Of a stretch of DNA of 64,000 bases, positions 11,852 to 13,276 are shown in pieces (the first letter of the stretch is position 1; the number at the start of each line of letters is the position of its first letter). The notes beneath the pieces are model-generated. The model made no database searches, was not told the origin of the DNA, and saw only the letters and a list, made by a program, of their open reading frames with translations. The stretch covers positions 1 through 64,000 of the forward strand of contig SOEU01000003.1 in NCBI GenBank assembly GCA_021646415.1, written 5' to 3'. The position numbers and the translations under genes were made by a program. This DNA is from Candidatus Brocadia sp. (GTDB lineage: Bacteria > Planctomycetota > Brocadiia > Brocadiales > Brocadiaceae).

Positions 11852-11890
11852 AAAAAAGGGGTTGGGTAATACCTATTACCCAACCCCTTT
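11852..11890 (-). terminator. Intrinsic terminator of the zinc-ribbon gene
   Basis: A 16-bp perfect stem (aaaggggttgggtaat at 11855-11870 with attacccaacccctt at 11875-11890) has a 4-base loop. On the minus strand it is followed by six T. It ends the transcript of the gene at 11920-12189. Confidence 0.9.
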
Positions 11891-11919
11891 CGAACAACAA
11901 TTAATGCTCCTACTATTCA

Positions 11920-12189
11920 TTAACCTACCGGTGCAAAATCTCCTGCAGGACTGCCATCGTTATTGTATATTGTCGGCATGTAAAAAGTGTTTTCTGCAGC
12001 CTGATCTATCTTCTGGTTGCACTTTGGGCACCGCCTATTGTGTGGACCTCTGCTAATGAATTTTTTTCCACACATGAGACAACTCCTTTCCGCCTTGTCT
12101 GTGTAAACATTTTTTAAGGAAAGGGTTTTTTCATTGTATTTTTTTAAAGTTTTACGCTTTGATTTTTCTTTATGCTGGACACTCATCAT
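11920..12189 (-). CDS. Small zinc-ribbon protein controlled by a cyclic-dinucleotide riboswitch
   Basis: The protein has 89 residues. A lysine-rich N-terminus (HKEKSKRKTLKKYNEK) precedes a zinc ribbon: SCLMCGKKF and later RRCPKCNQK, giving CxxC-x14-CxxC. The short tail is uncharged and aromatic. The basic arm plus ribbon suggests RNA or DNA binding. An AAGGAG ribosome site precedes two ATGs (12187-12189 and 12184-12186); spacing favours the second. The gene has its own promoter, riboswitch leader and terminator and is therefore monocistronic. I do not recognise a named family. Confidence 0.82.
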   Translation of the reverse strand: MMSVQHKEKSKRKTLKKYNEKTLSLKNVYTDKAERSCLMCGKKFISRGPHNRRCPKCNQKIDQAAENTFYMPTIYNNDGSPAGDFAPVG

Positions 12190-12295
12190 GAACTCCTTAA
12201 AAGGTTAATAAAGTAAATTACAATCGATTTAAAAAACAAAACTCTGTATAATATTGTTCCAAATATTTAATTTTTTGACATATTCAATCCATGAA

Positions 12296-12350
12296 CAAAA
12301 AAAGCCTTACTGCAAAGATGGTCACGAAAAACATCTTCGGCAGTAAGGCT
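12296..12350 (-). terminator. Leader terminator downstream of the riboswitch aptamer
   Basis: On the minus strand agccttactgc pairs with gcagtaaggct (12303-12313 with 12340-12350), and an inner stem aagatg/catctt (12315-12320 with 12332-12337) extends it. Seven T follow (12297-12303). Its 5' arm overlaps the 3' strand of the aptamer, as expected for a transcriptional switch. Confidence 0.85.
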
Positions 12351-12440
12351 GTCTTTATATTCTCCTGCCCCAGCAGGAAAATACTTTAAAGATCCTTTAC
12401 TTTGCGTCCCCTAGTTGCCTAGGGTTTGCCTTTATCTGAA
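12340..12440 (-). promoter_or_regulatory. Predicted cyclic-di-GMP riboswitch (GEMM-I class)
   Basis: The minus strand reads AAAGGCAAACC, then a stem CCCTAG/CTAGGG closed by a GCAA tetraloop, then GGACGCAAAG. This is the invariant core of GEMM-I aptamers (GGCAAACC-GNRA hairpin-GGACGCAAAG). A second hairpin (cctgc/gcagg around tggg) follows, then GACAGCC toward the 3' side. The guanine of the AGGCAAACC segment that distinguishes c-di-GMP from cGAMP binders appears to be G, which favours c-di-GMP. It lies between a promoter and a terminator ahead of the zinc-ribbon gene, so ligand binding probably blocks the terminator (ON switch). Confidence 0.8.
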
Positions 12441-12479
12441 TATGTACTATTTATTTAAAATAGCTCTTAATTTGCAATT

Positions 12480-12508
12480 ATTTTAATCCTAATAACGTTC
12501 TATGTCAA
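12480..12508 (-). promoter_or_regulatory. Sigma70-type promoter for the riboswitch transcript
   Basis: On the minus strand TTGACA (12503-12508), 17 bases, then TAAAAT (12480-12485). This is a near-consensus promoter whose start point would fall about 35 bases before the aptamer. Confidence 0.75.
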
Positions 12509-12733: not shown

Positions 12734-12811
<78 letters not shown>

Positions 12812-12973: not shown

Positions 12974-13276
12974 CTATTTTGATTTTGATTTTTTAGCTTT
13001 CCCTACTTTTTTTGAAACAGACTTTTTGACTGCCTTCTTCTGTTTTGGTATGGGTGATGGGCGGCAAAGCATATCACGCTTGGAAGCAAGCCGACCACAT
13101 GAGTCACAAATGTATTTTAAATTAACGACCTGTGGTGCGCACACATGTCGGGGGTCACCAGTTACAGTACCACAAAATTTGCAAGCAACGACCTTCTTGG
13201 CGGGTACTGGATTGCAAAGGTGACCTTTTTTTGTCGTTACCATACCGCACGTCTCACAAGTATAAACATTTTCCAT
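12974..13276 (-). CDS. Small triple zinc-knuckle protein with basic tail
   Basis: The 100-residue protein has three repeats of a CxxC-x8-12-C motif: YTCETCGMVTTKKGHLC, ACKFCGTVTGDPRHVC and YICDSCGRLASKRDMLC. A lysine/serine-rich tail follows (KKAVKKSVSKKVGKAKKSKSK region). Each repeat probably binds a metal with the aid of the trailing Cys or His. Its charge suggests nucleic-acid binding or a ribosome-associated role. It differs from the zinc-ribbon protein at 11920, but both carry Lys-rich arms. It starts 16 bases downstream of the polyferredoxin gene and so may be its operon partner. No family name is recognised. Confidence 0.75.
   Translation of the reverse strand: MENVYTCETCGMVTTKKGHLCNPVPAKKVVACKFCGTVTGDPRHVCAPQVVNLKYICDSCGRLASKRDMLCRPSPIPKQKKAVKKSVSKKVGKAKKSKSK

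Follow-up and report, generated by a model that had tools for sequence, protein, structure and literature searches.

The zinc-ribbon locus and its leader

The window, that is, the whole stretch of 64,000 nucleotides of Candidatus Brocadia DNA analysed here, contains on its minus strand a gene for a small basic Cys4 zinc-ribbon protein (11920..12186, with an alternative start at 12189), which is monocistronic and is followed by its own intrinsic terminator with a 17-bp stem (11891..11854, minus strand). Upstream of the gene, and likewise on the minus strand, lie a distal sigma70-type promoter (P1, 12508..12480), a class-I c-di-GMP aptamer (12440..12335), a riboswitch terminator that starts inside the aptamer (12350..12296), and a proximal ECF-sigma-type element (P2, 12260..12235), with about 110 nt of leader separating the riboswitch terminator from the gene. 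An earlier note on this DNA had described a Lys-rich zinc-ribbon gene of 89 residues with a terminator of its own. Both gene and terminator are indeed present, but the Brocadia orthologues share the second ATG (12186) as start codon, and this yields 88 residues instead of the 89 obtained from 12189.

The 88-residue protein contains 13 Lys and 5 Arg, and its orthologues are found throughout the family, with those of the 11 Brocadia genomes sharing 83-98% identity with the window protein. Here, the four cysteines of its two CxxC knuckles (C37, C40, C54, and C57) are invariant in 27 sequences, and the N-terminal segment is basic. These two features fit a nucleic-acid-binding zinc ribbon, and the protein probably binds nucleic acid. 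No curated family was matched over cut-off in Pfam (best DZR, with 18 bits vs 27.3) or NCBIfam, and a profile search of the PDB gave only weak matches to ribosomal eL43 and zinc fingers (E >= 0.038). The AlphaFold model is poor (pLDDT 57), too poor for a fold search. Moreover, the protein matches PHROG 13335 (E 5.4e-10), whose annotation carries no function. A phage origin was considered and rejected, as PHROG 13335 was the only such match and none was found in phage records or IMG/VR contigs.

Two neighbours of the gene were also noted. At nearly all of the family loci scanned, the zinc-ribbon gene is accompanied by a divergent tRNA (window 12734-12808, plus strand; anticodon UGG as read by eye) as a fixed neighbour, and at the Brocadia loci the riboswitch cassette sits between the two. 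Further along, a gene at 12974-13276 (minus strand) encodes a basic protein of 100 aa that has a Lys-rich tail and several CxxC pairs and matches no Pfam or NCBIfam family over cut-off.

As the earlier note had observed, P1 has the sequence TTGACA-17-TAAAAT, and it matches the consensus at 11 of 12 positions. The -35 TTGACA is invariant in all 11 Brocadia orthologous leaders, nine of which have TAAAAT as the -10 element and two TACAAT or TAGAAT. No conserved site comparable to TTGACA was seen in the non-Brocadia orthologues of the family (n=16). The recurrence of the leader in relatives, also raised in that note, was found in 10 of the 10 other Brocadia genomes searched, so that the aptamer is present before all 11 Brocadia orthologues (10 relatives plus the window). 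An Rfam scan of the 16 family orthologues from outside Brocadia (L065-L069 and L071-L081) found no aptamer.

The proximal ECF-type element

The GGAAC-N18-GTT element between riboswitch and gene had escaped the earlier note. In fact, GGAAC-N18/19-GTT is found before the zinc-ribbon gene in all 27 Brocadiaceae orthologues, 70-96 nt from the start codon, with a spacer of N18 in 23 and N19 in four, and in an alignment of 15 sequences with a mean identity of 44%, both GGAAC and GTT are invariant. GGAAC-N18-19-GTT is the proven consensus of the ECF factors sigmaE/sigmaH of C. glutamicum (PMC10012870). Five Sigma70_r2 proteins are encoded in the Brocadia genome, one of which is of the ECF type (L165; Sigma70_r2 plus r4_2), and all 22 family members carry GGAAC-N18-GTT 46-64 nt ahead of their orthologue of this ECF sigma gene (shuffled mean 0.06). 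The small ORF after the sigma gene is possibly an anti-sigma, a weak assignment given that its zf-HC2 match (16.9 bits) falls below the cut-off of 22.2.

By itself the pattern is not rare, as the window holds nine GGAAC-N17..19-GTT matches against 5.2 expected, and so the case for P2 rests on its conservation together with the sigma gene's own promoter. A 2-mismatch pattern derived from the two known sites found no third close copy. Taken together, P2 is probably read by the ECF sigma factor, whose gene lies elsewhere in the genome, and it is apparently a stress-type promoter. Moreover, a target could be called at 42 riboswitch loci, and of these only the zinc-ribbon locus has GGAAC-N-GTT between terminator and gene; at L051, a second match, of the GGAAT type, is located 831 nt from its gene. 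Transcripts starting at P2 would escape the riboswitch, because P2 is situated beyond its terminator. The earlier note had made c-di-GMP the control of the gene, a reading that is not supported in that form, as the conserved ECF-type promoter, which the riboswitch-less orthologues keep, should drive the gene without c-di-GMP.

We considered whether the riboswitch might still be the sole transcriptional control, with GGAAC-N18-GTT serving as a conserved operator or mRNA element rather than a promoter. In many orthologues, the window's among them, the motif doubles as an inverted repeat (AACAA...TTGTT), which would fit an operator, and several chance GGAAC-N17..19-GTT matches are expected per window. 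This dyad is broken, however, in some orthologues (AACC in G002, G010, and G012), whereas GGAAC and GTT never change; the motif recurs at equal spacing before the ECF sigma gene in 22/22 family members; and the 16 orthologues from other genera retain the element with neither a riboswitch nor a conserved TTGACA. We accordingly regard sole control by the riboswitch as improbable.

Alternatively, the leader could be a recently copied cassette whose RNA is functional yet has little effect on the gene, with P2 supplying most of the transcripts. Such a view would suit a genome with about 44 near-identical cassettes, a riboswitch that precedes the zinc-ribbon gene only in Brocadia, and a full promoter downstream of the terminator. 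It is made unlikely by the state of the leader across the 11 Brocadia genomes, where the P1 -35, the aptamer core, and the terminator arms are intact while the loop and flanks diverge around them. What we favour instead is an addition to an older arrangement, as the aptamer and the conserved TTGACA are found in 11 of 11 Brocadia, while the 16 other orthologues, which keep P2, have no aptamer and no comparable conserved site.

Outside the family, the distant zinc-ribbon homologue of family f2, in the same order, has neither a riboswitch nor an ECF-type promoter. Its members (L082, L083, and L084) carry upstream a sigma54-like TGGCACAGGGTATGCT (TGGCAC-N5-ATGCT, read by eye) in place of the ECF-type motif, and the zinc-ribbon gene thus appears to change regulators repeatedly.

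Aptamer, terminator, and ligand

The GEMM-I core described in the earlier note was confirmed by the Rfam search that the note itself had proposed, with the aptamer scoring 65.5 bits against RF01051 (12440-12336; cut-off 35). It also matches RF03167 (c-di-GMP-I-GGC) at 12439-12335 with 62.2 bits (cut-off 59, E 2.8e-12), and of the two models, RF03167 gives the lower E-value and RF01051 the higher bit score. The P1b hairpin reads CCCUAG-GCAA-CUAGGG and is capped by a GNRA tetraloop, and across the 44 genome copies, its positions 1, 2, 3, and 4 show pair changes on both sides with the pairing kept. The riboswitch itself is real and of a known kind. In the window copy, the P3 tip has a variable insert, and no tetraloop receptor is evident by eye. 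Palindromic inserts of recurring sequence (GCCGTTTAAACGG... and GAGACGCATTGCAATGCGTCTC) occupy the P3 tips of other copies (L016, L022, L030, L032, L036, L037, L047, L050, and others), which gives the impression of repeats inserting there, and the P3 loop is very short in the Brocadia orthologues G002, G008, G009, and G010.

The contact bases, whose positions G20/A47/C92 we assume to follow the numbering of the Vc2 structure, are G/A/C in 42 of the 44 genome copies, the window copy included. An A at position 20, the mark of the GEMM-Ib cGAMP riboswitch, occurs in one copy (L052), and a G at position 47 in another (L053). The former (L052:3951-4110; genome C9:74490-74599, minus strand) is the lone A20 aptamer of the genome and is located upstream of a ferredoxin and a rubredoxin. 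In Ca. B. pituitae, three copies have A20, two of them at targets whose counterparts in the window genome have G20; with A20 thus found at other loci in this relative, the change is sporadic.

In the cmscan alignment, the RF03167 consensus GACGCGAAG has a G where the window reads GACGCAAAG with an A, a mismatch that we take to fall at Vc2 position 47. From the model and its name, we infer that a G at the A47 position defines the RF03167 family. The ‘GGC’ variant, Rfam's lowest-E label, was rejected for the window copy because its A47G change is absent there, and with A rather than G at position 47, the contact bases form the canonical c-di-GMP set. Sensing of cGAMP by the window copy was likewise rejected, on account of the G at position 20 and the GGDEF domains of the genome, 12 in number, none of which (0/12) carries the serine diagnostic of Hypr cGAMP synthases (PMC6456294). 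As judged from sequence, c-di-GMP is the best-supported ligand. The lowest E-value and the A20 and G47 copies might suggest that the aptamer senses cGAMP, or a ‘GGC’ ligand yet to be named, rather than c-di-GMP; as far as sequence can tell, such a variant specificity is unlikely against G20/A47/C92 in the window copy and 41 others, the A47G mismatch and higher RF01051 bit score, the missing Hypr serine, and the sporadic nature of A20.

The terminator overlapping the 3' part of the aptamer, also seen in the earlier note, is kept in the 11 Brocadia leaders and folds with -25.8 kcal/mol (z = -7.1), with no shuffle equally good. Its 5' arm AGCCUUACUGC (12350-12340) is the 3' strand of the aptamer and includes the ligand-pairing C, and its 3' arm GCAGUAAGGCU is followed by a U tract, such that AGCCUUACUGC either closes the aptamer P3 or pairs with GCAGUAAGGCU. 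Arm pairing of at least 10 out of 11 is found in 41 of the 44 copies, compared with 22 of 8800 shuffled arms, and every copy (44/44) has at least six U in the 9-nt tail. In the window copy, the shared strand pairs upstream when the aptamer is folded alone. With the terminator sequence included, this strand becomes part of the terminator in the MFE structures of 43 of the 44 copies, again including that of the window. As the aptamer 3' strand with its ligand-pairing C doubles as the terminator 5' arm, the ligand should allow read-through. In the pilM ON-riboswitch, C75 is captured by the terminator G102 (PMC9262584), and by analogy with this precedent, the window riboswitch would be a transcriptional ON-switch of the same kind, much as the earlier note had supposed.

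We consider it likely, then, that the zinc-ribbon gene is an ancestral ECF-driven gene to which Brocadia has added a sigma70 promoter with a c-di-GMP ON-switch. Here, the ancestral proximal P2 would drive the gene without c-di-GMP, and the distal promoter and class-I riboswitch would have been added upstream of P2 in the Brocadia lineage. Without c-di-GMP, P1 transcripts would stop at a terminator in which GCAGUAAGGCUUUUUUU pairs with the 3' strand of the aptamer; when c-di-GMP is present, this strand would stay in the aptamer, ligand-pairing C included, and RNA polymerase would read on. The P1 and P2 inputs are predicted to add in an OR logic, making the riboswitch a second input rather than the sole control.

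The genome-wide riboswitch set and known systems

The genome contains 44 matches to RF03167 (28 over cut-off) and 45 to RF01051 (43 over cut-off), amounting to about 44 near-identical copies with a common expression platform. The 45th RF01051 match (G000:C1:386000-386089, plus strand) has 31.4 bits, is below cut-off, and lacks an RF03167 match. Matches to RF03167 number 22-57 per genome in the 11 Brocadia genomes, 1-24 in other genera of the family, and zero in family f2 of the order. Among the sampled Planctomycetota outside the family, no genome has >5 copies; the phylum-wide counts reach a ceiling of 14 candidates in any one genome and serve only for this statement, not for ranking.

With genes called by a simple codon-usage script and targets assigned by Pfam/NCBIfam, the zinc-ribbon gene joins a group of about 40 targets rich in surface, polysaccharide, protease, and cytochrome genes, and is not the isolated odd target that the earlier note had implied. 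The surface targets, adhesins among them, include Ig-like, SBBP, Kelch, DUF11, and CHRD proteins, while those of protease type are thermolysin, subtilase, M48, and caspase-PEGA proteins, in addition to an amidase. There are UDP-sugar and polysaccharide enzymes, a STAS-PilZ protein and two sigma-54 regulators, and, as redox targets, cytochrome c', P460, and a DMSO-reductase type II enzyme whose nearest solved relatives are 5e7o and 4ydd. Further targets are an AAA ATPase and PqqD/radical-SAM RiPP-like loci. At 20 riboswitch loci, a homologous riboswitch-linked target exists in Ca. B. pituitae, the zinc-ribbon gene (88.5% identity) being among these.

Several individual loci may be mentioned. 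At L022 (801-4749; C18), an aptamer is located 58 nt before the operon of the DMSO-reductase type II molybdoenzyme (NCBIfam TIGR03479, over cut-off). At L045 (1078-3764; C8), an aptamer precedes four tandem small Cys-rich ORFs and a radical-SAM/SPASM gene in a RiPP-like cluster, and one of these ORFs weakly matches the Cys-Xaa-Xaa-Xaa repeat radical-SAM target family. Tandem c-di-GMP riboswitches before one gene are found at L041/L042 (C7:153553-153868, minus strand), L053/L054 (C28), and G002:C1:2195100-2195293; wherever the sequence was read, every riboswitch of a pair had a terminator of its own.

Through its copies, the cassette would bring genes for surface, polysaccharide, protease, redox, and regulatory functions under c-di-GMP. 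We lean, by a little, towards a wider reading in which a mass-copied c-di-GMP ON cassette (22-57 per genome) serves Brocadia as a regulator at genome scale, tying surface, matrix, proteolytic, and redox genes to the sessile state, and in which its placement before an ancestral ECF stress promoter at the zinc-ribbon gene creates an OR gate for c-di-GMP and stress. In wastewater treatment, anammox bacteria work as granules and biofilms, and how these are sensed and built is poorly known; a c-di-GMP regulon that can be read from sequence offers a concrete list of target genes, with about 20 loci sharing a common target between the window genome and Ca. B. pituitae. The zinc-ribbon locus suggests that a riboswitch cassette can be added before an older alternative-sigma promoter as a second input, the first not being replaced, and it cautions that sole control cannot be concluded just from finding a riboswitch upstream. 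In our view, the size of the regulon and the stacked promoters are of more interest than the identity of the zinc-ribbon target. Neither this size nor the two-promoter architecture was found in the open literature searched, and no report of such a riboswitch regulon in anammox bacteria was found in the open-access literature searched.

When compared with known systems, P2 shares identical -35/-10 elements and spacing with the Corynebacterium SigE/SigH promoters (PMC10012870). ECF sigma genes of this class are known to be autoregulated, and the Brocadiaceae ECF gene has the motif upstream. Corynebacterium belongs to another phylum, however, and the sigma-promoter match in Brocadia is drawn only from conservation. 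The aptamer resembles the c-di-GMP-I type (GEMM-I, RF01051) in its core sequence, P1b GNRA tetraloop, bulged P3, G20/A47/C92, and 5'-leader position, but differs in that its P3 tip has a variable insert hairpin with no evident tetraloop receptor. As for switching, the predicted transcriptional ON arrangement of the window copy is like that of the pilM riboswitch of Geobacter metallireducens (PMC9262584), in which the terminator takes up the 3' strand of the aptamer together with the ligand-pairing C, making the holo aptamer and terminator mutually exclusive; unlike pilM, which senses cGAMP, the window copy carries at position 20 the base typical of c-di-GMP sensing. Finally, Geobacter sulfurreducens has 17 GEMM-I riboswitches (PMC6456294), and the Brocadia set is similar to this regulon in its many copies per genome, its tandem pairs, and its surface and cytochrome targets, whereas Brocadia, as an unrelated lineage, has 22-57 copies per genome, and of those that were read nearly all are of the c-di-GMP type.
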